A stretch of 64,000 nt of DNA from Utricularia gibba (lineage: Eukaryota > Streptophyta > Magnoliopsida > Lamiales > Lentibulariaceae), in NCBI GenBank assembly GCA_002189035.1, contig NEEC01000009.1, forward strand, positions 1,240,001 through 1,304,000, read 5' to 3'. Shown here piece by piece: positions 30,118 through 61,128 of the stretch. Each line of letters starts with the position of its first letter. Positions within the stretch are counted from its first letter, which is position 1. The notes beneath the pieces are model-generated. The model was not told the DNA's origin. It did not search any database and saw only the letters and a list, made by a program, of their open reading frames with translations. A program made the translations under genes and the position numbers.

Positions 30118-31139
30118 ATGGCGTATTCCTCGCTTTTAACTTCTGTACCTCACTTCACTCTTCCTAGATCTCGGTTCCAGCGCTTGGGCCGCCGCAACTT
30201 CTCTGTGTCGGCCGCGATTCCTCCGCTTCCCACGGCTGCCGAGGTTTCCGCAGCGTCCGATGCCCTCGATGGCGCTTCAATTGCGGCAATTGGAGGTGGG
30301 TCAGTGGCTGCTCTTGCCGCGGTGCTATCCCTTAGTGACCCAGAGAAGCGGCGGAAAATGCAGGCGGAGGAGGTGGGCGGAGGGGACAAGGAGGTCGTTC
30401 GCGAGTATTTCAATAACGATGGGTTTCAGCGGTGGCGGAGGATTTATGGAGATGGGGATGATGTTAATCGGGTTCAGAAAGATATTAGATTGGGGCACTC
30501 TAAAACCGTGGAGAATGTGATCAAGATGTTGTTGGATGAAGGGCCCTTGAATGGTATCACAGTCTGCGACGCTGGCTGTGGAACCGGCTCCCTGTCTATC
30601 CCGTTAGCCAAGGAGGGAGCTGTTGTGGCGGCCAGCGATATCTCCGCCGCCATGGTCTCAGAGGCTGAGAAAAATGTACTCCCCAATCCGTCTTTCAACT
30701 TTTATATTCCTTAAGATTCAACATTTACACACATGGTGCAGGCAATGGAAGAGCTTGGTAAAGAGAACTCACAAGGAACTGTGCTTCCAAGATTTGAGGT
30801 GAAGGATTTAGAGAGCTTACAGGGGAAGTACAACACAGTTGTTTGTCTAGATGTTCTGATACACTATCCTCAAAACAAAGCTGATGCCATGATAGCCCAT
30901 CTCACTTCATTAGCAGAGAGGCGTTTGATTCTTAGCTTTGCCCCAAAAACATTCTATTACGATCTACTTAAGAGGATCGGTGAACTGTTCCTGGACCTTC
31001 AAAGGCTACAAGGGCTTACCTCCATTCTGAAGCTGATGTGGAGAGGGCATTGAGAAAGGTGGGATGGAAGATCAGAAAGAGAGGTTTGACTACAACACAG
31101 TTCTATTTCTCAAGAATTGTTGAGGCTATTCCTGCATAG
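30118..31139 (+). CDS. CHLM: Mg-protoporphyrin IX methyltransferase CHLM (frame broken once)
   Basis: Two exons (30118-30675 and 30742-31139) carry nearly the whole enzyme, about 318 residues when the frame is followed. An N-terminal Ser/Arg-rich transit peptide is followed by a hydrophobic SIAAIGGGSVAALAAVLSL stretch and the SAM-binding motif VCDAGCGTGSL. The second exon has VVCLDVLIHYPQ and ILSFAPKTFYYDLLKRIGELF. After that the family expects PGPSKATRAYL, which is present one frame over from about 30992. The frame as given stops at 31053 with an unrelated tail, losing some 45 C-terminal residues. Adding one base at the CC run (30990-30991) restores the family sequence to the stop at 31139. 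CHLM methylates Mg-protoporphyrin IX in chloroplast membranes and is essential for chlorophyll synthesis, so an assembly error is more likely than a null gene. Confidence 0.9.
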
Positions 31140-31723
31140 CAGCTCACCTCAAGAGCAGAGTTTGAGTATTGCTTTCCCTGCTACTATTTCATTATACTGC
31201 GAACTGCAAGAGTCATGTAAAATTGCAGGAATCTAGGAAATGTGTGCCCAGGTCTCTCAGACCGTTGTCCAAAAATCTGAATTTTGGTTCCAACATGAAC
31301 TTTTTCCGTTAACTGAAAGCTGGGTACAGGTTCCAACTACAAAGCTTCGACTGACAACCGAACACTCTTGCGATCTGAAACACTGGAAATCAATCCCGTT
31401 ACAACCGGCGGTTTTGCAACGGAAAAAGATCCAGAGTTCAGACAATCTCTCGTCAAAGGTTGAGCTTCAGACCCAGACAGATGGGCCTGATAAGGAAAAC
31501 GGGCTGAATGATTTTAATTGGGCCTGGCCCTGTCAGTTGGTGGAAGGGCAATATATCGGTACTCATGGGCTCGGCCCTTGATTTTGGGCGGCTCAGGGAT
31601 TTCCACCAGTCGTGGAATTATCCGCCGCGGACTGAAAATATCCTGTGTTTGCTTTTGGGGGGAATTGCATGTGATCAACAAGTTTGGAATCGGATTTGGT
31701 CGTACTCGTAACTGAACTGAGAC
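31140..31723. other. Spacer between CHLM and glycyl-tRNA synthetase
   Basis: CHLM 3' UTR followed by the promoter and leader of the next gene. An open frame at 31240-31581 has no resemblance to known proteins, and in particular nothing like the WHEP segment that precedes many plant glycyl-tRNA synthetases. Confidence 0.55.
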
Positions 31724-34700
31724 ATGGAGGCGGCGCAAAAAACCCTAGAGCGGGAAGCTTTCCGTCTAGCAGTTGTTAACACTCTCGAGCGCCGGCTTTT
31801 CTATATACCATCATTCAAGATTTACCGCGGCGTTGCTGGGCTCTACGACTATGGACCTCCTGGTTGTGCTGTTAAAGCTAACGTCCTTGCGTTCTGGCGC
31901 CAAGTAGGCCTATATGATGTTTTTCTTTAAATTCTTTATTGACTGGATTTGGTAATGGATGGCGCTGCAGTGCAGTGGTTTCTTTAGTAGTGTATTGGAT
32001 TCAGTACTCGCTTGCAATTTTTATTTTCAGTCGGAGATGTCTGATCTCTTTTTTTTACTGTTATTCAGACCTTTCTTTAGTATGGTTTTTTATACAATGC
32101 TACATCCATGTACCTTGCTTTGGTATTGTGTAGCATTTTGTACTGGAAGAGAGCATGCTGGAAGTTGACTGCCCCTGTGTTACGCCGGAAGTTGTGCTCA
32201 AGGCCTCAGGCCATGTTGATAAGTTCACTGATCTCATGGTCAAAGATGAAAAGACTGGAACATGCTACAGAGCTGATCATCTGCTGAAAGATTTTTGCAA
32301 GGACAAGCTTGAGAAGGACACGAAGCTAGACGCAGAAAAGGTGAAAGAAATTAAGCATATTCTTGCAACGTTGGATGACCTCTCTGCTGAGGAACTTGGG
32401 GCAAAACTTAAAGAATATGGGATTACAGCTCCAGAAACCAAAAACCCGCTCTCTGATCCCTATCCTTTTAATCTGATGTTTCAGACATCAATTGGACCAT
32501 CTGGATTGACCCCTGGGTGAGTATGATTAGTTATCATCTAATCACTCTACCTGCACGGTATGGTTTTGCTTTCATTTGATTTATGAGGTTTGATTTTTTT
32601 TTTTTCAGTTATATGCGTCCTGAGACTGCTCAAGGAATTTTCGTCAACTTTAAGGACTTATATTACTATAATGGAAACAAGCTTCCTTTTGCTGCAGCTC
32701 AAATTGGCCAAGCTTTCCGAAATGAGGTTTTACCACGTTTTCTTGATTTTTTTGCTCTATTGACATCATTTTAATGTCGAATAGCACCATCGACACTTTT
32801 TGTGCAACATGATTTCCATGAATTATCCTTTGTATCTTCCACAGTCATATATAGGTCTAAAACCAATGGATATTGCAGATTTCCCCACGTCAAGGTCTCT
32901 TAAGAGTTCGTGAGTTCACACTCGCGGAAATTGAGCACTTTGTAGATCCAGAAGACAAGTCACATCCTAAGTTTTCTGAAGTGAGCGGACTAGAATTTCT
33001 TATGTTCCCAAGAGAAGATCAGGTATCCGGAAAACAGGCTAGAAGAATAGCTATCGGAAAAGCAGTGTCTCAGGTTATTATTACTGTGTAGAGCCTAATA
33101 GCCACACGACTTTTTTGTCATTCTCAAGTATCTTTATGTCAATCAGGGGATCGTCAACAATGAAACACTTGGATACTTTGTAGGGCGAGTATACCTGTTC
33201 CTGACACAGCTTGGAATAGATAAAGATCGCCTACGTTTTCGACAGCATTTGGCAAATGAGATGGCACACTATGCTGCAGATTGTTGGGATGCTGAAATTG
33301 AATGCTCTTATGGATGGATTGAATGTGTGGGCATTGCTGATCGTTCGGCATATGATTTGCGCGCCCATACAGTAAGTACTATTTAAGTTTACCTTTTTTT
33401 TCAGAATCCCTGATGAGAAATTATATTGGTTGATGCGATGGTTTTTCTCTATTTTTCAGGATAAGAGCGGTGTGCCTCTGGTGGCTGCTGAAAAATTTGC
33501 TGAACCTAAAGAAGTAGAGGTAGTTTCTCCCAATTTTTTCTAGTGCTCCTCTTATATGTAATCCTTTCTGTACTTATTTGCGTACTGACATCAGGAGATT
33601 CACATATCAAGATGCGTGTGCTAATGTATTTATTTATATGGTTTTGTTGGAATAGATTGCTTTGAGCAATTTTCTTTAAAGGCTCCCGGCCCCGAGTTTC
33701 GCATTCGATTGAATAGCTGTTCATGCAATAATTCTCTTATAAGTTTGTAACTTGAATGCTCTCCGAATCATTTGTTAACAGTTGACTGTTTATGGTTTTC
33801 AGAAGCTTGTCATAACTCCTGTTAAGAAAGAAATTGGCCTTGCTTTCAAGAGCAACCAAAAGATGGTGCTTGAAGCCTTAGAGGTATAAGCTCGTTCATA
33901 TTTCTTTTCTCAAGTTACTTTATTTCTTAAAAATTTTGTTGATACCATTATTCTTACTAATGCACAACAATTGTTTTCATATCCTTGTGAAGTGCTTCTT
34001 GTGCATATTTTGGGAGATGATACACTTCTACTAACGATGCTTTTACTCAACAATTGTGAAGGCTATGGGCGATAAGGAAGCTATGGAGATGAAATCATCT
34101 CTAGAAACTGTTGGGGAAGCAGAGCTTCACATTTGTACGCTTGATCAAGTTGTCTCTATAAAGAAAAATATGGTGTCAATCTCCAAGGAGAAAAAAAAGG
34201 AGCACCAAAGAGTCTTCACTCCATCCGTGATCGAGCCATCCTTCGGCATTGGAAGGATCATATACTGTCTCTACGAACACACCTTTTACACAAGGACCAG
34301 CAAGGACGGGGATGAGCAGCTGAACGTCTTCCGGTTCCCACCCCTGGTTGCTCCCATCAAGTGCACCGTTTTCCCTCTGGTTCAAAATCAAGAATACGAG
34401 GAAGTCGCCAAGAAAATTGCCAAGTCATTAACTGCAGTTGGGATTTCTTACAAGATCGATATAACAGGTAACCATCCACCATTTTGCATCCCCATCACTC
34501 TGTCTCTCTCTTTCTGTCCATGCAAGATCGAGTTTGCAGTTGAGTGCACAGCATGTTTGTTCATCTAGAAACTGTGGTTCTCCAATGCAGGCACCTCGAT
34601 CGGCAAGAGGTACGCCAGGACTGACGAACTGGGGGTTCCCTTTGCCATCACAGTGGACTCTGCAACCTCAGTTACCGTCCGAGAGAGAGACAGCAAGGAG

Positions 34701-34808
34701 CAAGTCCGTGTTAACGTGGACGAGGTGGCTTCTTTGATCAAGGAGGTAACAGATGGCGTCAGCACATGGAACGGCGACGTATTGAGGAAGTACCCCACAC
34801 ACCACTGA
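31724..34808 (+). CDS. Glycyl-tRNA synthetase, short eukaryotic form
   Basis: Nine exons (31724-31903, 32134-32516, 32609-32726, 32879-33073, 33147-33371, 33460-33519, 33803-33883, 34062-34467, 34591-34808) join in frame to 621 residues. Class II features are clear: [23 protein letters not shown], motif 2 around [17 protein letters not shown], motif 3 [15 protein letters not shown], then the anticodon-binding domain with [19 protein letters not shown]. It charges tRNA-Gly in an alpha-2 enzyme. The Arabidopsis dual-targeted enzyme (At1g29880) is about 730 residues, with a targeting sequence and WHEP region before the catalytic core. Here the core starts directly at [13 protein letters not shown], with an in-frame TGA six bases upstream (31718-31720). 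This copy therefore looks cytosolic only, unless upstream exons were missed. Confidence 0.93.
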
Positions 34809-35444
34809 TCTTCACCATGACACCAACCAAGCGGATGCAGACTCTGGTCACCACACACAGACAGGCATAACTTCCCAGCATTGTTCTGACGTACTACTTG
34901 AACAGCTGCCAGTATCATTTGCATGATTATTGAAAAGGTCATTTTTGTCTTTTCGAGTTCCTTTTTTTAATTTTAAGAAGAGAAAAAAAAGAATATATAT
35001 ATATGCAGCCAAGGCTGGGGAGACATCACAATCAGACAAGAGCAAGAGCGCTACTCCTGTACTGTATTAATGCATTCGTCGTCTTCTTCTCCAGATTGTT
35101 CATTTCGTAAGTGCTTACCTCACCTGGATGAGGATGGGCGCTGGGTATATACATAGACAGGAATGCCTGTTTTAAGTGAGGAGTTGACGTCGGAGATCGC
35201 GGTTGCGGAAACGAAAGTGAGAAAGGCTCTCAAGATTACTGAGCTCATCGTACACATCATCTTTTTCCCTGAACCTCGCTGTGTTGAGTATGCGGTTTGT
35301 CTGATTTTGATGTGATGATTATTCGGCTGAACGGTTGTCGATTGGGATAACGGAGTCTGACGTCTTCAGGGTTGTTGCTTTTCCTTTTTCATGTCTCATC
35401 TCCTTGAATTTCGGATTCTCCAGGTGTAACGGCACAAGCACAGG
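34809..35444. other. Spacer before SURNod19 gene
   Basis: 3' UTR of the synthetase, then sequence without a recognised coding frame. A short TA repeat lies near 34994-35004. Confidence 0.5.
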
Positions 35445-37185
35445 ATGACTCGGGTGTCACTCTCCTTATGTGTTCTCCTGCCAATCCTTCTTCTTTTGTC
35501 AGGATTAGAGTTCTCGCTCGCTTTTTCGACAATTGAAGGGGAGGTGAAGAAACAAGTGTTTATGTCACCTGGATTTGTGTTGGAACCGGGTTCGGTTTCT
35601 AACAAATATTACTATAACATCGATTTTCCTCGAGGTCATATTGCTCTCAAGAGTTTCAATGGTGAAGTGGTTGACGAGCAGGGGAACCCCGTTTCACTTC
35701 ACGATACTTATTTGCATCATTGGGTTGTGGTTCGATACTATCAGAAGTCTGGTTATGATATTCAGGTTCATCAGGGTGATCTTGCTTTCCACAGTTCCAA
35801 TTTCATTACTGTAAAAAATAGTGGGCTGTGCGACCATGGACTGATTCAGTATTTCGGACTTGGCTCTGAGACCAGGAAAACAGCCACTCGTGTGCCTGAT
35901 CCTTATGGTGTTGAGGTTGGTAATCCGGTGGATATCCCTTCCGGATTCGAGGAGCGCTGGATGCTTAATGTGCATGCTATCGACACTCGGGAAGCCGAAG
36001 ATAGGATGGGCTGTACAGAGTGCAGGTGTGATCTGTACAATATCACTGTAGCTCAAGACTATGTTGTGAAGATCAGGCTAGATGCAGGGTGAAAGAGGGA
36101 ATCAGGGGCATTAAGAGAGTCCTTTATTTGAGGTACACAGTGGAATATGTTGACTGGAGCTCAGCTATTGTTCCTGTTAATATTTTCATTATTGATGTCA
36201 CTGATATATGGAGAAAGGCTGATCAGTCCAGAGGCATCAAAGAGCAACACACATGCTTGGTATACATATCAACTTATCTGAAATGTCATTCTTATGCAAA
36301 ATCAGCATGAAAATATATATATTTTTTCTGTTTCAATGCAGATAGAGTATGAAGTCCACCCCTGTTCTTCTAGTAGTTCTAATGACGCCTGCACCCACTC
36401 AAAAACCTTGACTGTCAAAATGCCTACCGGTGGTGATGTTATATATGGTGTTGGGCACCAACATTCGGGAGGCACGGGAATAACTCTACTTGGAGAGGTG
36501 ATTCCTTCAAAACATATAAATTGGCATGCTGTGTTGAAAACCATAAGCTAATGGATGAACTAACTGTTTCAGGGAGGGCGCCATATATGCTCATCTATTC
36601 CGGAATACGGAAAAGGAACTGAACCTGGAAACGAGGACGGCCATATTGTGGGAATGTCCACATGTTATCCTTCACCAGGATCAATCAAGATCTCTGCAGG
36701 GGAGATGCTTACTCTGGTGTCCAATTATAGCAGTGCACAGCTCCATACTGGGGTCATGGGGTTGTTTTACATCCTAGTTGCTGAGGAGCCCGACACTCTC
36801 CTCCATGCTGCAGTTGAAGTAAGTTTCCCCCCTTCCGGTTTCCTAATTCTCCTTTCGACTACATACTTAAATAGCAACGTAAATAGTAATGTAGACACAC
36901 TGAGAGCTCGAAACATGGATTCAACTCTTCTGTGCCTTCTCTTTACCACATCTTGTACCTCCAACATGAATGCAACTGCCACCTTGTTAATGACACATTT
37001 CTGAATCCACACTGTTTCTTCTCAAACTGTGGATGATTTTTCTTATGGTTTTGCAGGGTAAGCAATCAAGCAGAGCCCCCAGTGTAGTTATATTGTTTGC
37101 TGTCTTCGGGGCTGGGGCTATTGCAGCAATTGCTTTTCTAAAGCGCGGAAAGAAGGAAGGGCAAGAGTATGAAGCTATACCATGA
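35445..37185 (+). CDS. Stress up-regulated Nod19 (SURNod19) protein, frame broken once
   Basis: Four exons (35445-36259, 36342-36497, 36573-36818, 37057-37185). A signal peptide opens the protein and a single C-terminal membrane segment (VVILFAVFGAGAIAAIAFL) ends in a basic, acidic cytosolic tail, so a type I membrane or secretory-pathway protein is likely. Family motifs are SPGFVLEPGSVSNKYYYNIDFPRGHIALKSF, TYLHHWVVVRYY, MGCTECRCDLYN, YGVGHQHSGG and GMSTCYPSPGSI. After DLYNIT (near 36047) the frame runs into a stop at 36090, while the expected continuation, CCEDQARCRVKEG, lies one frame away from about 36062. The total length is one base short of a multiple of three. About 12 residues that relatives have here also seem to be absent. 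Biochemical function is unknown; the founding member is nodulation and stress induced. It could be a pseudogene or a sequencing error. Confidence 0.85.
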
Positions 37186-37606
37186 GGTGACCCTCACTGA
37201 GTTGCATAACTTTGCTCTTGTCATGTCAACTGATGCTCAACGCTTTGGACTGTGTAGCATGAGCACGAAATCAAATAACCATCAAAAGTACTGTATAATG
37301 ATGGGTTCAATACCAGGATATACTTTTTTTAAAATATTAGAGATTTAAAAAATATATTTTATTTTTATACTAAATAATAATAATAATAAATGGGATTTAA
37401 ACGGTGAGCTTCCTAAAAATATAATGGGCCTAAGGATGTTTAGATGAGCCCCTGTAAGATCCATAGCGAGGGCCCAATGAACCCGATGTGGACCCCACAA
37501 AAGAGCACATGTTTGGGCCTTCAGATTTATAGATTAAAGGCCCAAACGAATTGTTTAATACGGATCAATGGAACCCGGTCTGGTCAGCGAATTGTCACTC
37601 AGTCTA

Positions 37607-37625
37607 CGTGGGTGCCTCTCATTGG
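37607..37625 (-). promoter_or_regulatory. ER stress response element, perfect CCAAT-N9-CCACG
   Basis: On the minus strand the sequence reads CCAATGAGAGGCACCCACG, which fits ERSE-I exactly (CCAAT, nine bases, CCACG). It stands about 55 bases before the calnexin TATA box and about 190 before its ATG. In plants such elements are bound by bZIP28 with NF-Y subunits during the unfolded protein response. The match to the downstream gene's function makes chance less likely. Confidence 0.8.
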
Positions 37626-37680
37626 TTGATGAAACCTGTAAAGAATGTGATTGGGCGAAACAGCGGGAGTTGCGGAGGTT

Positions 37681-37688
37681 TATAAATA
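37681..37688 (+). promoter_or_regulatory. Calnexin TATA box
   Basis: TATAAATA in a GC-balanced promoter, about 130 bases before the calnexin ATG, with the ER stress element just upstream. Confidence 0.75.
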
Positions 37689-37816
37689 GAGGCGGCTAAG
37701 TCGGCCTTCAGCTTTAACCGTTGCAACAACACAGCACATCCCCAATTCCTTTCACTGGTTCCTTTGTCAAGAACCTTTCTGGATTGAGGGAGGATCGGAG
37801 GAGAAGGATCTTGAAA

Positions 37817-40057
37817 ATGAAGTTCCTTCTGCTGCTGCTGGCACTAGCCTGCGTTGTTGCTCGCCTCCACGCTTCGGAGGATGTGGTAAGACAATTCATA
37901 GTTTTCTGAGCTGTCGCTTCGTTTCTGTAATGTATCAGATTTATGTGAGCTGATTATTTGTTTCAAATTTTGGTGTAGATCATCGTAGACGTTTTTGTAT
38001 TTCATGTATTCTCATTGTGTTAACTCAATTGTGGTTACAGAAGTTCTACGAGTCGTTTGATGAGGATTTCAAGGGAAGGTGGACTGTTTCGGAGAACAGT
38101 GATTATACAGGTGGGGTTTCTCTTTCTTCTCTCTATGTAATGGCGTCTGTTATGTCGAGGGATTTTCGCACGCTTGTCTGATTGCCATTTGGGTATCTAA
38201 TGTATTGGTTTGTAGCTTCTCTTTTTTTGTTGTGTTCTTTGGTTATTTGAAGGAGACTATTTTGTGTGATTAAAGATTACTTGAAGGTTGTGAATTGCTG
38301 TGGACTAGGCAGTAGTTTCTTAAAATGAGTAGAAAATTGTTGTGGTATCAGGTGTTTGGAAGCATGAGAAGAGTAACGGACATGATGATTATGGACTGCT
38401 TGTAAGTCAGAAGGCACGGAAATATGCCATTGTTAAGGAGCTTGATGCACCTGTGGATGTGACAGAGGGCACTGTTGTCCTTCAATATGAGGCTCGGTTC
38501 CAAGAAGGACTTGAGTGTGGTGGTGCATACCTCAAATTTCTCCGTCCTCAGGAAGCTGGATGGACTGCTAAGGAGTTTGATAATGAATCACCTTACACGA
38601 TAATGTTTGGCCCTGATAAATGCGGTGCTACGAACAAGGTGCACTTCATTCTGAAGCATAAAAACCCAAAGACTGGAAATTTTGTTGAACACCACCTTCA
38701 GCTTCCCCCATCTGTTCCATTCGACAAATTGACCCATGTTTACACGGCCATCTTGAAACCAGATAATGAGCTGAGGATTTTAGTAGATGGGGAAGAGAAG
38801 AAGAAGACTAACATTCTCTCTCAGGATGATTTTCAACCTTCGATTATCCCATCTAAGACCATCCCTGATCCAGATGATGTGAAACCAGAGGACTGGGATG
38901 AGAGAGCAAAAATCCCTGATCCAGATGCAACGAAACCAGATGATTGGGATGAGGATGCTCCAATGGAAATTGATGATGAGGATGCTGTGAAGCCTGAAGG
39001 CTGGTTGGATGATGAGCCTGCAGAGATTGATGATCCTGAAGCATCAAAACCAGAGGACTGGGATGATGAAGAGGATGGCGAATGGGAGGCACCTAAGGTT
39101 GATAATCCCAAATGTGAAGAAGCTCCGGGTTGCGGTGAGTGGAAGAGGCCTAAAAAGAGGAATCCTAATTACCATGGAAAATGGCATGCTCCTCTTATTG
39201 ACAACCCCAATTACAAGGGCATTTGGAAGAATAGAGAGATCGATAACCCTGAGTATTTTGAGCTTGACAAGCCAAACTATGAGCCCATTGCTGCTATTGG
39301 AATTGAAATCTGGACGATGCAAGATGGCATACTTTTTGACAATATTTTGATCTCTACCAGTGAGGAAGTTGCAGAATCATACCGCAAATCTAGCTGGAAG
39401 CCAAAGTTTGAGGCCGAGAAGGAGAAACAGAAGGCTGAGGAAGCTTCCAGTTCTGATGATGGCCTTGAGAGTTTCCAGGTAATTGAGGAAGTTTCACATC
39501 TTCCCAGTTCAAGTCCCTTCTTGCTACAACATTGTGACGCCCACCACTTTCCCTGTTATTCGTGACAGAAAATTGTGTTCGACAACCTTTACAAGGTGGC
39601 TGATCTCCACTTTTTGGCTGAGCACAAGAGCAAGCTCTTGGTAAGTCAAATGGCCTTCCTCTTAACTCGTTCCATGCCAGATACTCATACATGAACTACT
39701 ACTCTTTGTGCCGCAGGATTTGATCGAAAAGGCCGAAAAGCAGCCGAACCTCACAATCGGTATCCTTGTCTCCATTGTGGTCATCATCTTGTCTATCTTT
39801 TTCAGGCTGATCTTCGGTGGAAAGAAGCCAGTAAGTGTATATATAGCCCTGATCATTAACTACTCCCGCTTCTTTCTCTAAGTTCTCCGTTCATTCATTA
39901 CTACAAAACTCTTTTTATTCCCCAGGCAAAGAGTGAGGCCAAGAAAAAGGATGTTGCTCAGACTGAAGACAAGCAAGAGGAAACCGATGATAAAGATGAG
40001 CAGAACGGAGACGCTGCCGCCGCTACTCGCCGGAGGAACACGAGACGGGATAACTGA
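37817..40057 (+). CDS. CNX1: Calnexin, ER membrane lectin chaperone
   Basis: Six exons (37817-37885, 38041-38110, 38352-39478, 39569-39640, 39717-39830, 39926-40057) join in frame to 527 residues, the normal size. A cleavable signal peptide is followed by the lectin domain with [14 protein letters not shown] and CGGAYLKFL, a calreticulin-family signature. The P domain has repeats of the type IPDPD-KPEDWD and then [22 protein letters not shown] single transmembrane helix ([18 protein letters not shown]) and a cytosolic tail ending RRRNTRRDN follow. It retains monoglucosylated glycoproteins for folding in the ER. The large third exon carries most of the lumenal part, and exons 4-6 the membrane anchor. 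Promoter context supports induction by ER stress. I cannot separate CNX1 from CNX2 orthology. Confidence 0.96.
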
Positions 40058-40482
40058 TGCAATTGAAGTCGAAGAACATATAATCCTCCATGGAGAGAGC
40101 ATCACAACGAGGGGAAGTATCTCAAACAATCTTTTCGACCCCTTGAATTTTTCCTGGCAGCTGGCTGATGTCTGCCTCCTGTTGAGTTTCCCTTCTAATT
40201 TCCATGTCGAACACCTCAATTTGGTTTGTGTGACAAATATTCACTTCAATGAAGCTTTTGTTTAATCAAAACTAAAACCACAGACAAGTCGCGTTGGTGT
40301 TCGTTTTCTGGAAGCAAATCAATCTGAAGCAAAACTGTTCAACAAAAATAAGCTGTCTGAAGACAAGGAAAACATCGTCACTGCCCTGCCCTGCCCTGAC
40401 TCTCTCTCTGTCGCGTTCACTGAGATGACAACATTGCAAAAGTACTCGCACAGGCTGAGCCTTAGCAGGGAGCTTCTTCGCT
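40058..40482. other. Convergent 3' spacer, calnexin / Tudor-SN
   Basis: Only 425 bases separate the two stop codons, so the 3' UTRs are close or overlapping. A CTGCC repeat stands near 40381-40396. No gene seen. Confidence 0.6.
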
Positions 40483-46720: not shown

Positions 46721-47913
46721 TCAAAAACTGTGCGTACAAATTTTCTCCAGCAAGAAAGGCCAGTCTTCGCCAAGGATTTGTGGATTCAGTTCCATGGCTA
46801 GTCGAAAGTCCGTGAGAGAGATTTGGGGTGTCTCTGTTTCTCCAATGCGTTGCGACCGATCAGAGTCGTTCGTTTGGTTGAGTATACAGTTCTGGATTGT
46901 CCCGTGTCCTGATCTTGATCTTACTAGCTGGGAGCAGGAGTGTAATAAACCTTTCAGGTACGAATCTAGACTATGGTTCACCAGGTTGGCAGAATCTAGC
47001 AATACCCCCTCAAGGCCATTAGCAACGGCAATCCGCTCCATTCTATCCTTTAATTTCTGGCTATCCCATAAGATACCGTCACTGAGTTCGAGTTTACGAA
47101 TGCATCTACTACTACTGCTACTTGCAAAAGGGAGAGCACTTTGTGCTCTACTGATTCTAAAAGGAAAAAGCTGAACCCCGAGAGGGTTTCTAGCAGAACC
47201 TTCTTTAGTAACTAAAAGAGCTGACTGATCTCTGCTACATGAGGGTCCTGAGGATTCGAATAATCTGGCATCTGGCATTCCACTAGCCTGAGAAGTAGGG
47301 GTTTCAATTTCTTTGTCTGATTGACGCAGGATCCTAACATCCTCAGGTGGATCCAAATCTCCATTCTTCGATTTGGGATAGAAGTAGATGGCTGGATGGC
47401 AGCAGATGTCTCAGTGACGAAACTGGTCTTCCCATTGGACCCCAGAGCACTCCTGCTGCCTCCATGCCTCCGATCACGGCTCCCTGTTCTAGCTTTTCGA
47501 GGTGATGGCGGAAGGATGCCGATACCATTTGACATCCCTGGTGAACAAGAAGCCTGAGTTGCAGCATTATGGGACACTCTTCTCTCCTGGTAAGCATCAC
47601 AAGAAAGCTGTTTGACAGTCACGCCATTTCCATGACTTAAAATCTCATCTTTTTGAATGGAAGAAGAGGGTGGTCCTTTTGCGCAGACACCATTCTTCAG
47701 TATTGAACGAATGAGCTGATTGTGAAGTGCAACATTCTCACGTCCAAGAATTCTAAGACAAACTTTATTGAACTCTATCTTGCTCATTTTTGAGTTCAAG
47801 AACTTGGCCAAGTAAAAGAAGTAATCCTTTGATCCATCAGGCCCCAGTTTCTTCACTAACTGAACCTTCAATTCCACCAGATTGATCCGTGAATGGGCCC
47901 CTGGTGTCTGCAT
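46721..47913 (-). CDS. ADA1/Hfi1-like SAGA coactivator subunit (Tada1), frame broken once
   Basis: Intronless gene of about 397 residues spread over two frames. The first frame starts MQTPGAHSRINLVELK and shows the conserved plant ADA1 N-terminus: VKKLGPDGSKDYFFYLAKFL, KIEFNKVCLRILGRENVALHNQLIRSILKN, then LPPSPRKARTGSRDRR and SALGSNGK. The second frame contains the other family blocks LGVQLFP, ALPFASSSSS, LKDRMERIAVANGLEGV and LDSYLKGLLHSC and runs to the stop at 46721. The frames meet near 47370-47378, where minus-strand CCCAAATCG would need one more C or A to read through as IPKSKNGDL. ADA1 is a histone-fold-like scaffold of the SAGA complex. The first frame alone would end at 47212. One missing base is the simplest reading; a real pseudogene cannot be excluded. 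Confidence 0.85.
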
Positions 47914-49606: not shown

Positions 49607-51655
49607 TCACGCATCCAGCTCGCAAGGAAAAATTGCCGATGCGAAGGAGTCGTAGTTCCCGAAGATGATGTCATGTTCGTCGGCAAAGGTGCTCGAGTCC
49701 TGGAAGTCGAACGACGTCTGTATGTCGTCGGGGAAGCATCGCCGGGGAGGCTTCGGCTCCGACTGGCTGCACACAGCGGCGGTCTGCTCTACCAGCATTT
49801 CCCGGAACTTGGAGGACTGCAGGAACAGCGCCAGCGTGGAGGGGACAATCTCTGCCTCCTCCGTGGCCCCGGAGTTCTGGGCCGGCGCTTCCTGGCCCAC
49901 GGCACCCGACTGATCGGAGCTCCTTCGGAATGACTTGATCCACTTCACATAGTGACTGAGATCGAAGTTGGTCACGGCGTTGAGTCCCCGGTACTCGATG
50001 GCGGCAACGTCATAAGCAATGGCGGCTTCCTCCTGCGTGGCTTCACCAATCACACCATCCCACAAGTTAAACCAGATCAGAAACAGCCCCAGATCCGCAA
50101 CACCAGTAAACTAACAACACAGGCATTCTAATCCCATCACAAGCAAATTTGAAGTGATATAAAAGCACCCACTTCGGACTAGTTGGAGGGTAGCTGGAAT
50201 TTATGACAAGGAGTTTTGGAAGGTACCCACCCATATTTGAAACCAGCAAACCGACCTAACAGTTGAGAACTCGCCTAACAGACCTAGTCCAGTTCCTGTT
50301 CGCATCACCAGCTCTTTATTCCCATTTAATTTCTCTTTTGACCCGTTTCTTTTCACCCTAAAACCCTCGTCGTGATTGGAGAACGATGACAAAAACCAGA
50401 CGTTCACTCACCATAGGTTCCAAGGTACAGATACTTATTCCCAGAACTCTTCCGATGCGGGCTTCCCATCTTCCATTATGGTGGTGCCTACGTGCAAATA
50501 GACGTAAATAATTACATTTTTTTTATAAATAATAAAAATGAAATAATTTTTATTATTAAAGGGGGCGGCTTGTAAAGATTGTGAAATTTCATTTTGACCC
50601 CTGCCTGGGCTTGAAAAAAAATTAAAAAAAAAGGTTCTTTGTACGTTCCCAAGTGGGCGAGTACAGACAACTTTACATGGTCCCAATCAATCACCGCCGT
50701 TAATCTTAGCTGGTGGGCTCTCTTTTTCCTCACACCATAAATGAATATTCAGTATTATTTTATTACAGGGTGAATAGTGAATTAAAAAAAAAACTTACCG
50801 TGCTACGCCTCTGTATTTGGAAACTCCCCGAGAAAAGCCGCTGCTTTTTCTACGAATTGACGGGGTAAATTATTAAATGCGTGCGGTAATAATTAGGAGA
50901 GGTAATTATAAATTACCTTCTTAAGGAACCAATGTACTCTTCTCTTGACTGGGCCTCCATTTCCTTGAGCTCGCTCTCGTAACTGGAAACCTAAAATAAT
51001 GATGATGATGATGATGATGTAGACCGGATTTGTGGGTTTCCGGTGAGGGTAAAAAAGAGTATTCTTTTTTTTTACGGCGGTGAAAATTTACTGGGAAATT
51101 TAGGGTTGTATCGTGTCCCAGTACTTGAGTGCTGCCAAGTCATACGCATGTGCGGCTGCTTTTTCATCATCGTAGGCCCCTAAAGCAACTATGTCGATTA
51201 AATTATGGATTTGTATAGAATAAACGGATAAGATCGTAGAAATTGGAACTGATTGTTACCTAAATACACTGCACTCCGATGGATCACGGCGGCCGGAAAG
51301 GAATCAGGATTAGTGTGGAGTGGAAGGGAAAATCAGAAATGGTAAAGGAGACGAAAGACCGACCTTGTCGGCCCTTCTTGTTCTGCGATTCATTCCAGCA
51401 ATCCTTATCCCATAAATGCGCCTCATACCGGCCGGTCCACCGGTGTCTGAATCGGAGGGGCGGAATCGGAATCAGACCGCAATCACTCATTCATTCATTC
51501 ATTCATCCCAATGAAATCCAATTTTACCTGGTGACGCCGCGGTACACGGAGCTCCGCTGTTGAGGAGACTCCCTGGGTATGCTCTTCCTGCTCCGCTTGC
51601 TCCTCAGAATTGGCTCCTCCGGTGGGGTGGCGACAGCGGTGGCGCGCTTGGCCAT
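49607..51655 (-). CDS. AP2/ERF factor, WRINKLED3/4-like (frame broken twice)
   Basis: Eight exons (51655-51528, 51446-51364, 51268-51260, 51179-51092, 50990-50917, 50849-50799, 50487-50412, 50040-49607) carry two AP2 domains, about 314 residues when followed across two frame breaks. AP2-1 is [23 protein letters not shown], joined through a 9-nt micro-exon to [26 protein letters not shown]2-2 is [22 protein letters not shown] then [27 protein letters not shown]. After LKYW the frame breaks at a CCC run (51117-51119); after GRVLG it breaks at another (50440-50442). One extra G in the sense strand at each restores [10 protein letters not shown] and [13 protein letters not shown]3/WRI4 factors activate fatty-acid and cutin or wax genes. 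Assembly error is favoured but loss of function is possible. Confidence 0.85.
50999..51019 (+). repeat. ATG trinucleotide microsatellite
   Basis: Seven copies of ATG in an intron of the WRI-like gene. Confidence 0.9.
51260..51268 (-). other. 9-nt micro-exon (VYL)
   Basis: The nine bases TGTATTTAG lie between GTGCAG and GTAACA. They supply V-Y-L and the first base of Gly between the preceding RQ and the following GAYDDE. The same micro-exon is known in WRI1-type AP2 genes and is commonly missed by gene predictors. Confidence 0.85.
51487..51506 (+). repeat. TCAT tetranucleotide microsatellite
   Basis: Five copies of TCAT in the first intron of the WRI-like gene. Confidence 0.9.
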
Positions 51656-52090
51656 GCTGGTTTCGGGTCCAGTTTGAGTGATGGGCAGGGCTGAATGTTG
51701 GTTGTCGCGACTGGCCGGCCCTATATATGTATTCTCACAACACGATTCCCCTCCTTCCCCCTTCCTCCTCTCTTACAAAGACGCCTTAAATGTTCAATGT
51801 TCGTATTATTATTTGGCGGAATTAATTGTTGTTACCGTAGGATCGCCAACTTCCTCCGCTCACGCCTTTAATTCTCCGCTGCAATTTTTGGTCTATTTAT
51901 TTATTTCACCCTCCCCTTCAGCCTACCACATAAAAAATGCCGTGGCTTCCTGTCCAATCAGATATTAACTGTTTTTTTAATTAATTTCTTTTATATTTCC
52001 AATCGGGTTCCATAATGTATGTGATTAAGGGATCCATTTTAAGAGAAGGCCGGGCCGGGTTTCTGTTGGAGGTGATTAAGGGGTAATTAT

Positions 52091-52100
52091 GACACGTGTC
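52091..52100. promoter_or_regulatory. Palindromic G-box/ABRE GACACGTGTC
   Basis: A perfect 10-bp palindrome with CACGTG core, about 440 bases upstream of the WRI-like start. It fits bZIP or bHLH binding. Single motif, so function is uncertain. Confidence 0.45.
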
Positions 52101-53600
52101 GGTTAATGAGGGGGGTATTTGGAGTATTTAATTGGTTCAAAGTGGAATAATGGATGCCCACTAAATTGGAATGAACTAACGGTTAGGTTAATCTGTTGGC
52201 CACAATAATTAGGAAATTATTTCCCATCCCTAAATGTTTTTGCCGGGTTAAACCCTAATGAATGAGCTGTCACCATTTATTGCTGCGCTTTTTGAATTCA
52301 TGCAACTTTTTTTTTCCAAATTTTAAAATAAATGCCCGTCTTCATTCTCAATGGGGTACATATGAACGGGTGCTTTATGTTACATTAATCACATATTTAA
52401 TTAGCAATAGTATTTAATACTATATTTTGGTAATCCTGTAAGTGTATAATAAATAAGATTATCAAATTGATTATTTTTTTATTTAAAATTGACTGGAAAT
52501 GATATTTCTTGTAAATTAGTCACATATTGAATTAGTAATGATATTTAATGCTATATATTAGATATTCTTTGTTATTTAAACTTTGATTTATGGTCAAAGA
52601 CAAACACATATATTATATAGATTTTTGTAATAAATACTATTTCATTTAATTATATATTATGGATATTTGATAATATTATATGTATATTTAAATATAGTAT
52701 TTTGTGTAAAATATGTGTTAAATAGTCTTTATTTAAATAACGTTAGTTCTAGAATATACTCATGTTTTTTAAATATTTATTTTTTTGAATATTAATATTA
52801 TATATGATTAACTTGGATGAATTAAAATATCATATTAAATTAAACTAAATTTCATTTTAGCGTTATTATTATTTAATTTGAAGAACTGGGACTGGGACTG
52901 GCACATCCTGACCGCATGCGATTCAGGTTCGCTAGTGGCCGTAGGATTGAATACGGAGGGGGAAGGGATGGGTGGGTCCCGCAGTACAGGTACGTGTGTG
53001 GGCTTTGGAATAGTGAATCCATCACCCATTTCCCACAGAGGAATTCAGGCCCGTTCAAGAGGGTTTGTCTGTGCGGATTTTAATCTAACAAACTGTGTTT
53101 GGGCGGGGGGGTTTGGATGTTTTTGGGCTTGCAGGGGGGAGAGAATGAATCTAGTTAGATTTGGAGACGGGTGCTGTGAATGGAAGGAAATTATGGCACT
53201 GTGTGGATGATGATAGAACTTGCAAAGGTAAACCATCGGCGATGCTGCTCTGCTTTTCATGTAGATTGTTCTCTTGAGGAGACTAAGCGGGTACAAGACA
53301 AACTTGAATGCCTGTTCTATTGCTTTGCTATATTCCCATTTGAGATTGCACCCATTCCTGAGATGGATAGTGTGCCGTTGTTTAACTGTGGATTCTTTAT
53401 CTGTTTGCTGCCTTTTCAAAAAACTTCACATGTGATTACTGTTTCCCAGCAGAACTGGCTGCTTTCTTTTTTTCATTACGTTTTGTGGGGATAACACATG
53501 GCACATGGCACATGGAAGGTTTGTTCTTATTCTACCTGCACACTTTTGCTTTTCTCTTGCGTGTGTTGCCATCCATGAAGCAGTCTCGTGTCATGTAGTG

Positions 53601-53616
53601 AATATATATATATATA
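53601..53616 (+). repeat. TA dinucleotide repeat
   Basis: About eight TA units in the 3' flank just downstream of the aspartic protease stop. Confidence 0.85.
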
Positions 53617-53636
53617 CATGCTGTTTTGTGTAAAAA

Positions 53637-55240
53637 TTACATCTTTCGTGGTCTTAAGCTGCACATCTCTCGAGCAAATCCCACCACTAAATTCTTTGTA
53701 TCATACACAACTCTTGTGTTTCTCTGCTGATAGTTCCCAATGATCCCGTTCTCATCCTCGTAACCAAGGCTTGCCAGAGCTAAGCACACTTGTGATGAAT
53801 CCCTTCTCACGAAATACAGCATTCCTGAAACATCGACACTCATCTCTGCTCCACCCTGGAACCTCATCTTCATTGTAGGGACATTGACTTTCTGGTATCC
53901 TGTGAGGTTGAAGCATGTGTCCAAGATCGAGAATCCTGGGGCGGGAGGGTACCCTGCAAACTGCACCAAGAACTCGTCTTTAACTGCTCTGTAGATAGAT
54001 GGAGGGAGTCTAGTGATGACTGTCCCCGAATCAATAAGAATCCCTGTCTTCCCAAAAGATGGAGATTGCAATTCAACACCTCCAACGCTGGCTCCTGTCA
54101 TATTCAGAAGGTAGAAGCTGTTGAGTTGAGGATCTACCACTAAGTTAGTGTAAGAAACCGGAGTTGTGTTTCTGAAAACCGAGGTACTGCTTCCAAGAAC
54201 TAATGAACCCGAGAGAGTGGTATCTGACTCAGGTAAGCAGTAGGAGAAAACACCATCAAACAAATTGGAAGTTTGAGAAATGAGTGAAAGTTGGCTTCTT
54301 CCCAGTCCCAGTAAACCAGAAGCAGCACCAAAAAGACCTTTGTTGTAATACCCGCATCCAAATATGAAGTTCTCAATAGAAACCACTCCTAGAAGTAGCT
54401 TATCCTTCCCCAGATTCCCTGCAGTTGATGATCCGTCCCCGTATGTAACTGCATATTTACATTTAGGTTCATCGTTACCACATAACCCTGAGTGTCCAAT
54501 TGCGTACTGTAAATTCTGACAGGCTTGTGAGCTGCATTGAACGTTTCGATATGAAGGGGATAGCAAGGGGTTGAACACTGGATCTGCTTGAGTGTAGCAT
54601 TGCTGACAAGGCTGACACTGAACCCAACTCAGATCACTTCCTGTGTCAACTATAACTGTCAAGTTTCGCCCCCCTAATGTAACAGTGACTATGTAGTTAA
54701 GTGTCTGGAGTTTGATTCCTGAGTTCAGTGGAAGCTCTGCTTGTAGAGACATGGATTCCTTTTTCGTGGAACCCATATTTTCAATGCGGTATTGCATGGA
54801 CTTGAATCTGATAACATCAGCAAAGAGACGATTTTGAGGCTTGTTGTTCCAGTCTTGTGCAAGGCCTGAGCAGGAATCATGATGCTTCATTTCTAAAATG
54901 GTAGCTCCGTTTTCATTTCCTGTTGATGCTGACAACTCTCTTTAGAAGCAGATAACATCAGGGCACCAAAAGTAGGAAACCCAAGAAACGAAACTTTCCC
55001 TAACCTTAAAACTACCATAAAAGCAACCCAAAAGAAACAAGTGGAATGCAATTTGGTGTTTGAAAACTCACTTGTTGTCTGTGGGACTCTGCAGTTTACA
55101 GCATACTCTGGCTTTGTCCGGGTTAGCTTCTTCAATGAGAGAGGAAGAAGCTCATTCCTGAGTACACAAGAAACAGAACTAATGCAGCTGGTAAACGCAA
55201 ACAGGAGGAGCAGAGAAGCCATTGAAACCCAGAGACCCAT
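53637..55240 (-). CDS. Nepenthesin-like aspartic protease (family A1)
   Basis: Two exons (55240-55072 and 54928-53637) join in frame to 486 residues. A signal peptide (MGLWVSMASLLLLFAFTSC) is followed by a prosegment with LEMKHHDSCSG, as in plant atypical aspartic proteases. The mature enzyme starts near LPLNSGIKLQTLNYIVTV. The active sites are VDTGSDLSW and IDSGTVITRLP. Many cysteines, including CQPCQQCY, CSSQACQNL and CGNDEPKC, fit the nepenthesin-type insertion. The typical plant-specific saposin-like insert is absent. It is likely secreted or vacuolar. Substrate unknown; relatives act in defence and development. The first exon ends ACAACAA before GTGAGT, and the phase-1 junction restores QTTTSTGNE. 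Confidence 0.93.
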
Positions 55241-57627
55241 TTTCCCCTTCCCCTCAGAAGCTATCAGAGCAGAGCAAAGAGAGACAGAACATGCAGTCAG
55301 AATTTAAGAAGAGGGGAGTTGGATTCTCGTACCTTTGGATGGCTGTCTTGATACCCCACTAATTGCTTATCCACATTAACACATCTCTTAGCGAGCCACG
55401 TGATCATTTCACCATCTTAGAAACTGTGCTATCCCTCCCCCTCCCAAAAAAGAAGAAAATACACCAAATCCACTTGCTAACGAGCCCTCTCAAAACCATT
55501 CTACATGCAGTCCCCCCCTCCGTGTCAACCCAATGAACCACCATGTCATGATAATGCCGTCAAATCTCGACCAGGAAGATATCATTTCTAGTTCACGGGG
55601 GAACGTGGGTCTTCTTCAGCCTGCCCCTGGCATCATTCCTGCATGGCCCGCTTCGAGATGGAGTGTCGTGCTTATTGTATTCTTGTTCATCTGCTTCCGT
55701 CTGCATCAGCCTCAGTTTTGTCCTTGTCATTCCCACCTGTTCCTCTCCTACTCTCAAAGGCATCAAGACGCCGGTGCTACCTATTGTTGTGTGAAGCAGC
55801 ATTTGCATAAGAATCAGCATTATTGAGTGGGAGAAGAAGAAAACGACATGGCGAAAAAATGGCGACCGCTGCGGGGTTGGTCACGGGGGGAATAACAATA
55901 AATGAGGGGGTGGAGTTTTATTATGTCGTGTCCGTTGAAATTTTGTCATGAAACAAATGAAGCGTCGCTTTCGAGTCTGCTGGCTGCGGGGTCCACACCT
56001 CCGCTGCCTTGGGCCTGCTACTTGTGGTTTGTAAAATTGGACATAACATTTGAAAATGTAATAATCTTACAAATATCTTTTTAATATAAAATAGATAAAA
56101 TTGCAAGAAAAATATCTCAAATTTACTTTAATATAAAAAATTTAAATCCCTCAAATTGTTGAAATTTGATGAATCGAATGATATCTATGTAGGGCTATAT
56201 CACATTTGTGTATTGTATGATTCAAATTAAAGATATTTATATTGTTTTCATGTTTATATCTAATATAATATATTGTTATAACAACGATCAAAACCAATTA
56301 ATTTTGATAACATAAAAAGTTAAATATATAATTTCAATAAATTAAGGTGTAAACTATTTAAAAAATTAAATTGAAGGTTTTATATCATAATTTTGAAACT
56401 TGTAAATTAAATGTTTAATATTGACCATAAATTGGAATAACTTTGGTAAAATCTACCCATATAAAATATTTTCTTTTTTAATGTTTTAGTATTAGGAAAA
56501 ATGGGATTGGGCCAGGCCGCCTATTTTGAAATTGTAACTATGAACCGAGTGTTTGATTGAACTTTTTAAAATGGGCTTGGATCTGGTCTGGGCCCAAAAG
56601 GGAAGTACATCATAAAATTTCCAGCCAGGACTGGATACCTCTGATGCGGGCTCTTGTGGATCTATCTGGGCCGGATGCTGGTAGCCCGTATTGTCAAGTT
56701 TCTTAGGCCCAAATAAGGGAAACTAGATGCGATCCGTGTCCACAGCACAGCCCCTCCCCTGAATCTGGCTGATGGAGACCTAAACGAGGGAAGTCTGCAG
56801 TGCATGATTCCGGTGATCAAGTCCAAGCATAGTGACGAAGAAGAAGGCGGCGCTGGTGTTATGCGATAATGGATGAGATTTTAAGATGAGATGATCTGGG
56901 TTTAGCTCGTAATTAATTGGTAACGGAAAAGGAAAACGTGGGGAAGTGTACTGTTTACTATCGAAAGATGTAAGAGCATCATCATCGGTCACCTTTGGGG
57001 GTTGAACCAAAGCTGAAGCGTCATGGGGCTGGTTTCATTTCACTCATTCAATTTTTCGAAATGGTCCCTTTTTCATTTCACTGATTCTCATTTTTGCCGG
57101 CAAAGCTGACTGCGGAATCTCTCCCAGGACCTAGGGGTTCGTGCAAGAATCTTGGCGCTGCTCCGGGTCCGCTTTCTGTTTAACCTTCTTCTTTCTTGTG
57201 CTCGAGTGGGTACGTCGCATTTTTCTTTTCCTCTGTTCGCTGACTGGTAATTGTTTTCATTTTGAAAGCCCTTCTCGTAACTATTTCATCGTCTCCAATG
57301 CGTGGAGTGATGGAAGCCTTATGTGGGTTTCGCTACATTGCCGTTCATGGGACATCGTTTTCCGATTGCGTATTTGGTGCATGCTATTGTTTTTATTGTT
57401 GAAATTTTTGGTTGAAGAAGCGCATAAGAATCACCCCATTGTTAGATGATCTCTCCTTTAGAATGAAACTGGGTGCTTTTTAACCATTAACTGGACAATT
57501 TTACTCTGCTTTATATGGATCATTTATCAGATTTCTATCAGAGCTTTTTCATATGTTTCTGATGTATAACAATCATTGCTGGATGTTACTGATTTTGTAT
57601 GACTGTTTGTAGCTTCAGGATAACCTT
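55241..57627. other. Divergent region, aspartic protease / SDE3
   Basis: About 2.4 kb. No coding frame recognised. From 56030 to 56470 it is AT-rich. The SDE3 leader probably starts near 57000-57130. A donor-like GAGTGG|GTACGT near 57209 and an acceptor TTTGTAG near 57612 suggest one 5' UTR intron directly before the start. Confidence 0.5.
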
Positions 57628-60600
57628 ATGGAGTCAGCTGATAAATCTGATGATGAGTATTCGGTTATTGGTGATAAAGCAGACATTGGGTTTATTGATC
57701 TTGACAGCTGCAAATCTGTTTGCAACTATAACCCTTGTGAGGAGAGTGATTTTGTAGAGATATCTGTGCCTTTTGCATTAAGGGATGGAAAGCCTCAATC
57801 AGGACTTGTTGGTGAAACTAAGTTTGATACTGTTACAATAAAAAACATATCCAGTGAGCCATTGGATCTCTGGTCAGTAAGTATTTATGATGCCAAACCT
57901 GAGAACTCGTTTACGATTTCTCTAATGGAGCCCCAAACGCCAATTCTGATATGCAGTATATCGAGGATTTTATGGAGACATTTTCCTTGGAAGATAGAGT
58001 TCTGAAATGTGATCAGTGTTTGACCATCTGGTTGTCGTGCAAACCGAAAGAAATAGGGATGCATTCAGCAGCTGTGCACTTTACTGTTGGAAGCGAAACT
58101 ATAGAAAGGATAGTTTTTGTGTTAGCAGAAGATAGCATATCCAAGTCTTTGACCTCAAAAAAACCATATCAACGATTGGTGAGAAATAAACAATATACTT
58201 GGAACGCCAAGCCTGCAGATAATGCATATTTTGTGGGTCGTCGTCCTCCAAAGGCTTCGACTCGTGGGCCTAGGTACCGACTACCTGAATATCCTATTCC
58301 AGATTGTATCAGGTCTGTTATAAAAGACGGTCAGCTTCCTGATGTGGTGATTGAGGGTTTAGCACCTAGAAACTATGAGTCTTTCTTTAAAGCTTTACTA
58401 GCTATAGAAGAGATAAAGTTGGAGGTATGCACCTCTTTGATGCAGCATAGATACCATGTTTTGTATCCCTCTTACACTAATTATTGCCATCTTCATCTCT
58501 TTATTAATGCTTTCTTCTTTGATGGGTGTTCAGGAAGATATGCATGCCTATGACATGGTTTCAGTCACATTGAAAAGTAAAAGGAACCAGTTCCTGTCTC
58601 TTGAGGTTCCTGGTTTGGCTGAGAAACGACCGTCACTTGTTATTGGGGACTTCATTCTCGCTAAAGGTGCTTCTGGGAACGATTCTTTTCAGGTTATCCT
58701 ACTACTTTTCTTCATTCGAGTGTTTTTGGGAAATGTATTCTCATGTTACATGAACAGAATGTCAAAATACAATTCACCTTCTCTGGTTTTACTAAATTGT
58801 TCCCATTTGTGTTTTATGGCCTCAGTACTCTGTGAGCTTCTACATATATTTGCATCCATGTCTTCTGTCCAATGCATGTTATGTGTGAATTATGCTTTGT
58901 TCCGTGAATATTTATTCATGCGAGTTATTGAGATTGTCACATGCTTTTGATCTTTATTGTTCCTTGTTTCTTTATGTGCAGGGTTACATTCACAAAGTTG
59001 AGGCTGAAGAAATATATTTGAAGTTTGACCCGAAGTTTCATATCCACCACAGAGATGGAAATCAGTATGATGTCCAGTTCTCATACAATCGAACTGCTAT
59101 GCGAAGGCTGTATCAGGCTCTCGAGGCTGCTTCAAGTTTGAGTAAGAGGTTTCTTTTCCCATCTACTCCAAGCAGGACTAATGTGAAACAACCCCCAACG
59201 TTTGTTCCATTATCTTGTTCCCTGAACAAGGAACAAACGACTGCCATTCAAATGATCCTTTCTAGCAAGGGAGGGTTCCCATATGTGATTTACGGTCCCC
59301 TGGTACTGGCAAGACGATGACTCTGGTTGAATTAATCTTTCAAGTTTATAATAGAAATAGAAGAAAAGCTATTCTAGTCTGCGCACCTTCCAACCCTGCA
59401 GCCGATAATCTCTTGGAGAGGCTAATCCGTGAGAAGTCACCAGGATTTAAGAATGATGAGATATTTAGACTTAATGCGTACACACGTCCTTTAGAGGACA
59501 TGAATCCCAAACTCATGGATTTCTGCTATGAAGAAGACTCACTTTTCAAGTGTCTTCCACGTTTTGTTTTGGAAAAGTTTAGGATCATCATAACAACCTA
59601 CGCAAGTGCTTCTCATCTTTATGCTCAAGAACTGAGTCGTGGACACTTTTCTCATATTTTCTTGGATGAGGCTGGGCAAGCTTCAGAGCCAGAAACAATG
59701 GTTCCTCTGTCCCACCTATATACAGATCAGACTGTTGTGGTTCTTGCTGGAGATCCTATGCAGTTAGGTCCAGTTGTATTTTCTCAATGTGCTGAAAGCA
59801 GTGGACTGGGAACCTCATATTTGGAAAGGCTGCTACTCTTCAAGACATATGCTGATGGAGACCAGAATTTCATGACCAGGTTGGTTAGAAATTATCGAAC
59901 ACATGAAGCAATTCTTCGCCTTCCTTCTGACTTGTTTTATGATGGGAAACTAATCCCTTCTAAGGAGGATGAAAGATTCTCATCAGCCTTTTGGGATGGC
60001 ATTCTTCCCAACAAGGATTTCCCTTTGCTTTTCATTGGTATCCAAGGGTGTGACGAGAGGGAAGGAACCAATCCCTCGTGGTTCAACAGAATTGAGGCAA
60101 GCAAAGTAGTTGAGATGATCAGATTGCTGATTGATGATAAAGGGCTGAAAGAGGAGGATATTGGGGTCATTACACCCTACAGGCAACAGGTATCCAAAAT
60201 ACGGTGCACTCTAGAGAATCTTGGGATGTCTGGCATCAAAGTGGGAAGTGTTGAACAGTTCCAGGGACAAGAGAAAGAAGTCATCATCATATCCACAGTC
60301 CGCTCAACGATCAAGCATAATGAATTTGATAAGCGTCATTATCTAGGATTTCTGAGTAATCCAAGGAGGTTCAATGTTGCCATCACACGAGCCAAGTCTT
60401 TGCTTGTTATCATAGGGAATCCACACATTCTCTGCAAGGTACACGTAATCTGTTACACGTTTAACATGCTTTTTTTTTTTTTTTTTGCCTTTTTCATATG
60501 GAGCAACAATCAGTTCTCTAATGTATTACTTATATAGGATCCAAACTGGAACAACCTCCTATGGTATTGTGTGGACAACGGCTCATACAAAGGCTGCTTC

Positions 60601-61128
60601 CTTCCAGAGAAGCCATCTAGCAGTCCAGATTTCTCAGGCTATGAAGAGGGGAATAATGATTCTGGAGCATGCAATGGAAACTGGAATGATAATGGAAATG
60701 GTTGGGATACTCCCAAAGGTCAATGGAGTGCTGAAGAACAGGGTAATCAGACATCAAATTGGGATGACAATCCGAGTGAGTGGTATTCCTCCCAACGCCA
60801 ATGGGCTTCTAATGAACATGTCAATCACCCCTCAAACTGGGATGATAACGCCAATGATCGGAATTCTCCCCAACCTCAAGAGGGTGCTGAAGAACAGCCA
60901 CCAAACACTGATCAGCAGCCGTATGACAATTCTGATTCATTGGGTACACAACGTAATAATGATCCTTGGGTTGGAGATGATGAACAGAGTTGCAGGTCTG
61001 CAAATGACAACTCTGTGTGTGTAGAAGAAGAGAGTGAAACCACACCGCATGATGATGATTCATCACCACAAGGCTTCCATGGGAACAAGCATGAGGATAT
61101 CAACAAATCTGATGCACCATGGGAGTAA
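57628..61128 (+). CDS. SDE3: RNA helicase SDE3 (SILENCING DEFECTIVE 3), frame broken twice
   Basis: Four coding exons (57628-58424, 58534-58692, 58982-60438, 60538-61128) give about 1001 residues if followed across two breaks; Arabidopsis SDE3 has 1002. An N-terminal immunoglobulin-like region is followed by an SF1 Upf1-like helicase: Walker A would be GPPGTGKT, motif Ia [14 protein letters not shown], Walker B FLDEAGQA (DEAG), [35 protein letters not shown] and [16 protein letters not shown]. The C-terminus holds tandem Trp-containing repeats, an AGO hook. SDE3 supports transgene and RdRP-dependent silencing. The first break is at CCCC (57931-57934), where one more C gives the PPNANSD junction. 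The second is at CCCC (59297-59300), inside Walker A. A pseudogene would be expected to have decayed elsewhere; it has not. Confidence 0.9.
60679..60912 (+). repeat. 78-bp tandem repeat in SDE3 tail
   Basis: Imperfect copies of a 78-bp unit: AACTGG/AATTGG at 60679, 60757 and 60835, and CAATGG/CAAGAG at 60721, 60799 and 60877, all spaced exactly 78 bases. This encodes a 26-residue repeat with Trp in NWDDN and QW contexts. Copies have diverged. About three units. Confidence 0.85.

Follow-up and report, generated by a model that had tools for sequence, protein, structure and literature searches.

The question raised by this 64,000-nucleotide (nt) stretch of the Utricularia gibba genome (contig C505, positions 1240001-1304000, hereafter the window, within a genome assembled as 516 contigs totalling 100.09 Mb) is whether five genes whose reading frames are interrupted here, namely a CHLM-like, a SURNod19-like, an ADA1-like, a WRI-like and an SDE3-like gene, are broken in the plant or only in the assembly. 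Judging from coding frames and from one locus that seems to have been assembled on two contigs, we consider it very probable that the breaks are residual long-read consensus errors and not features of the plant. U. gibba has a genome of about 100 Mb and has undergone two recent whole-genome duplications (PMC8333044), and second copies of several window genes were found on contigs C402 or C412, mostly 74-83% identical. Sequencing of the species with PacBio reads (88x), assembled with HGAP to a contig N50 of 3.4 Mb, has been described for a genome given as 82 Mb (PMC5793159); circumstantial evidence suggests that the assembly at hand is probably this PacBio/HGAP assembly.

Results

A first-pass annotation of the window had proposed that each break lacks exactly one base and that the cause is homopolymer contraction in the consensus. 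We examined the breaks with a purpose-written protein-to-DNA aligner, aware of frameshifts and introns, which was run with proteins of relatives, admitted only GT/GC-AG introns and penalised stops; the splice sites of the SDE3-like and SURNod19-like genes were additionally read directly. In the underlying protein searches, Lamiales prevailed among the top matches for SURNod19 (the very first being from Glycine soja) and for SDE3, while those for the AP2 gene (WRI-like) were mixed, with Salix first. All seven places (one each in the CHLM, SURNod19 and ADA1-like genes, two each in the WRI-like and SDE3-like genes) showed a net change of -1 (mod 3), so that, as had been claimed, none of these seven needs a base removed; the chance of seven equal signs is 0.016 (two-sided). 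No stop was found in the alignments of any of the five genes. A single lost base fits six of the seven breaks, five of those six at a C or G run, with the ADA1 break placed only roughly.

Altogether 5/7 breaks lie at or adjoin a C/G run, in agreement with the five originally reported, the exceptions being the ADA1 break, whose position is uncertain, and the SURNod19 break, which has no such run. C/G runs of at least three bases make up 6.4% of 6.5 kb of coding sequence from the broken genes (in GRAS-domain coding sequence, 6.2% of 26.5 kb), which gives a binomial probability of about 2e-5 for five of seven, a descriptive value only, as the threshold was set after the data had been seen. In the broken genes A/T runs of at least three bases are commoner than C/G runs (196 vs 128); the five breaks placed at runs all avoid them, which disfavours ordinary slippage at A/T runs.

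The SDE3-like helicase gene (57628..61128, + strand, four exons) was aligned with three Lamiales SDE3 proteins (P0121, P0122, P0126). A loss of one base was placed at the CCCC run at 57931 with two of them and at 57940 with the third, and all three agreed on a second loss at the CCCC run at 59297, again without stops. The exons measure 797, 159, 1457 and 591 nt, leaving exons 1 and 3 each one base short of a multiple of three. Ahead of the first break identity to the Handroanthus protein was 0.81, between the breaks 0.69, downstream of the second 0.74, and within the last exon 0.46; a DNA-only search found no second SDE3 copy in the genome. Similarly, the WRI-like AP2 gene (49607..51655, - strand) was one base short at both 51117 and 50444 in the alignments of all four relatives, in each case next to a GGG run (CCC on the + strand) and with no stops; identity before, between and after the breaks was 0.70, 0.87 and 0.73 to Sesamum alatum and 0.89, 0.85 and 0.64 to S. 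indicum.

The CHLM-like gene (30118..31139, + strand, two exons) lacks one base at a C run at 30990, where its copy on C402 has one more C and stays open to its end. Exon-level comparison with paralogous DNA was full of intron gaps and was used only for details of CHLM and SURNod19. Over 309 codons, the nonsynonymous (Ka) and synonymous (Ks) divergences between the two CHLM copies were 0.051 and 0.542; over the 49 codons downstream of the break they were 0.018 and 0.572, a Ka/Ks of about 0.03, showing that the part of CHLM behind the break is strongly constrained. For the ADA1-like gene (46721..47913, - strand), the net -1 (mod 3) was confirmed, while the position assigned to it earlier proved uncertain: it is best placed at 47375-47385, with one open paralogue (L010) putting it at 47385, another (L012) giving +2 at 47379-47375, which is the same frame change, and a third (L013), also open, giving -1 at 47235.

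The SURNod19-like gene (PF07712 family; 35445..37185, + strand, four exons) differs from the others. Besides the -1 (mod 3) at 36050-36062, twelve codons present in the Paulownia protein (P0002) are absent there, between LYN(I/V)TV and CCxD, so that the claim of exactly one added base per break fits six of the seven and is not borne out here. The full segment is present in five of the six relatives displayed, that of Erythranthe being shorter. Identity to Paulownia was 0.69 before and 0.63 after the break, and no further SURNod19 match was found by a genome search. This may represent a real in-frame deletion plus one lost base, a consensus loss of greater length, or a true lesion of the plant gene.

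To see how far such breaks extend beyond the window, we used one family, GRAS (PF03514), on which the genome-wide count is based. A profile search of the contigs gave 69 matches in 45 loci (47.9 kb), with 24 loci found in one full piece. Joins were counted where fewer than 45 nt separated two pieces, which retained 17 of 24; among the seven left out, three on C402 keep the frame and one on C4 is an intron (in L079). The 17 joins fall in 15 of the 45 loci, on many contigs, and 14 of them shift the frame by -1 against 3 that shift it by +1/-2, a departure from an even split with a two-sided probability of 0.013. Relative to the profile, eight joins had a net excess of exactly -1, two of exactly -2 and seven of another value (-52 to +8), and no join had exactly +1; in L075, which provides one of the -2 joins, two separate single-base losses can be read. 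Over the 47.9 kb this amounts to one break per 2.8 kb; restricting the count to the exact cases, with two losses scored for each -2, lowers the rate to about one per 4 kb.

Protein-to-DNA alignment of 30 of these loci, each with its two best references, gave nine breaks reading -1 in seven loci (L061, L070, L073, L075 twice, L076, L077 and L078 twice); the 30 were the best-scoring of the 45, so intact loci are over-represented among them. L073 and L070 were kept as -1 although poorly placed, and L078 read -2 and -1 with its second reference. Rows were dropped for L053 (a +1 that the reciprocal comparison did not reproduce), L056 and L057 (near or before the start), L062 (the mirror of L061), L066 and L067 (a poly-G N-terminus, probably with one loss in L067), and L068, L069 and L079 (inconsistent or of low identity). 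One locus, C3:261182-262252, carries four stops and looks truly decayed, and since some GRAS loci look so, not every join can be an artefact.

A break common to six GRAS loci was considered as a conserved frameshift site and rejected: L076 and L077 have lost bases in a shared C run, L075 and L078 each carry two separate losses, an ordinary intron accounts for L079, and the sixth locus, at C1:4158002, lay outside the comparison. Lying in a conserved GRAS motif, the C run shortened in both paralogues L076 and L077 could pass for a conserved recoding site.

Contig C316 (38 kb; L061) and contig C412 (L062) appear to carry the same GRAS locus, and their alignment gave the most direct evidence. Over 4128 columns a single substitution was seen alongside 11 gap events totalling 20 nt, and all 11 are bases missing from C316, with none missing from C412. 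Single C or G bases at runs account for three of them; A/T or mixed sequence was lost in the remaining eight, which include losses of 2, 4 and 6 bases. Between alleles or duplicates one would expect differences to be more by substitution, and the two contigs seem to represent one locus. Contig redundancy of the kind seen for L061 and L062 could be used to gauge consensus error without reads.

For contrast, two neighbouring genes are unbroken in the window. The GlyRS-like gene (31725..34809, + strand, nine marked exons), compared separately, is unbroken here and in its C402 copy. The main exon of a calnexin-type gene (38351..39495, + strand) is likewise intact here and in its C412 copy, where 378 codons aligned without a break; its C402 copy (L004/L008, C402:2031597-2037662) is decayed, with only 121 of 381 codons aligned, one gain and one stop, and can serve as a standard for genuine pseudogenes of this genome. 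Elsewhere in the window, an AT-rich stretch of about 300 bases (56157-56470) has at least 38 relatives at 69-80% identity genome-wide and is a dispersed repeat.

Discussion

The one-way pattern in GRAS loci, the loss-only difference between C316 and C412, and the constraint on CHLM after its break make loss of bases in the consensus the best account of these frameshifts, and thereby support the homopolymer contraction suggested by the first-pass annotation, which was right on the likely cause and nearly right on the facts; what needed correcting was the SURNod19 break, the place of the ADA1 break, and the extent of the pattern, which reaches beyond the window. Losses outnumber gains and substitutions (7/7 breaks at -1; 11 losses to one substitution and no gains for C316 vs C412; 14 GRAS joins against 3), and with 15/45 GRAS loci involved, the pattern extends over more than a single gene or region. 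A short run, mostly of C or G, would have its length called from noisy single-molecule reads, the consensus would settle on one base too few, and a frameshift would thereby enter a reading frame that the plant itself keeps intact; accurate reads would be expected to carry the longer runs.

Several observations weigh against consensus loss. The deficit in SURNod19 is longer than one base and has no C/G run; CHLM has an intact second copy, so that a real loss would be tolerated; and the ADA1 break cannot be placed exactly, in a gene that is evolving fast (Ka 0.354, Ks 1.115) and is uninformative on constraint. Of the 11 losses in C316, eight lie away from C/G runs and some remove 2, 4 or 6 bases, and C316 is a small contig that may be of poorer quality or lower depth than the main contigs. 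Finally, 7/17 GRAS joins depart from an exact -1 or -2, and true decay is apparent in some of the family's loci.

The strongest of the alternatives is that these are real pseudogenes, copies which gained frameshifts in the plant after whole-genome duplication and are dying. Both CHLM and ADA1 have further open copies, SURNod19 lacks its twelve codons, and real decay does occur in this genome, as in the C402 calnexin-type copy and the GRAS locus with four stops. At the same time, dying copies would be expected to show mixed lesions, and none was found in the SDE3, WRI, CHLM and ADA1 alignments; stops, which had been named earlier as lesions that would speak for true decay, were looked for and are missing from all five genes, leaving the absent SURNod19 codons as the only lesion of another kind. 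There are no gains and only a single direction, no other SURNod19 match was found in the genome, the CHLM sequence behind its break is strongly constrained, and the same pattern recurs in many GRAS loci. We therefore regard pseudogenisation as improbable.

It is more doubtful still that the sequenced clone really carries contracted C/G runs. Such contraction, by an instability specific to C/G runs, would have struck many genes, with the plant tolerating or recoding the shortened runs, and we give this broader proposition equally little credence. That C/G runs are affected and the commoner A/T runs are not would fit a real contraction, but a one-way difference of the same kind separates C316 from C412 inside a single assembly, and PacBio consensus is known to behave in this way (PMC4888979, PMC6041341). 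Least likely of all, to the point of being negligible, is that ribosomes shift frame at these C/G runs and the genes work as they stand: the C run shared by L076 and L077 would favour this, but the SDE3, WRI and SURNod19 relatives and the open CHLM, ADA1 and GRAS paralogues read straight on, with no shift site found that they share or need, and sites and contexts vary between genes.

Consensus loss of this kind is an artefact already known, and ordinary, yet it bears on published gene-loss counts. In Enterococcus faecium (about 3.2 Mb), 561 single-base homopolymer deletions were left after HGAP and Quiver (PMC4888979), likewise single-base losses in homopolymers and of the order of one per 5-6 kb. 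There they were demonstrated with Illumina reads, whereas ours are deduced from coding frames and two contigs; moreover, in U. gibba coding C/G runs down to three bases are struck and no placed break is at an A/T run. In a PacBio assembly of the plant Cuscuta australis, Pilon fixed 980 single-nucleotide polymorphisms vs 101,825 indels (PMC6041341), so that indels exceeded substitutions about 100:1 before polishing, much as losses prevail here, with the difference that polishing there preceded the gene-loss analysis. Kastor (PMC12007338) addresses gene-fragmenting errors in long-read assemblies, in which homopolymer indels create frameshift-only pseudogenes like those described here, although in those nanopore bacterial data A/T stretches are more error-prone than G/C. 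In our broken genes, by contrast with those nanopore data, C/G runs are struck and A/T runs escape, although the latter are commoner and longer. In the available portions of the literature, including PMC8333044, PMC10663240, PMC5793159, PMC5797450 and PMC6041341, we found no statement on consensus indels in the U. gibba assembly, the PNAS 2017 genome paper being outside the scope of this search. RNA-seq data are listed in PMC10663240 under BioProjects PRJNA595351 and PRJNA354080.

Not every reported lesion in this species should be put under the same artefact untested: the authors who published an N-terminally truncated U. gibba DCL3 backed it with transcripts and 5' rapid amplification of cDNA ends (PMC8333044). 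If, on the other hand, one coding break per 3-4 kb held assembly-wide, an extrapolation from the single family in which 15/45 loci have such joins, roughly a quarter to a third of genes would read as broken. In PMC6041341, U. gibba is counted as absent from 992 + 563 orthogroups and as missing 13.7% of BUSCOs, set beside the polished Cuscuta assembly, and if the same U. gibba assembly was used there, part of the reported loss could be artefact. Counts of broken or lost U. gibba genes drawn from this assembly thus need checking against accurate reads.

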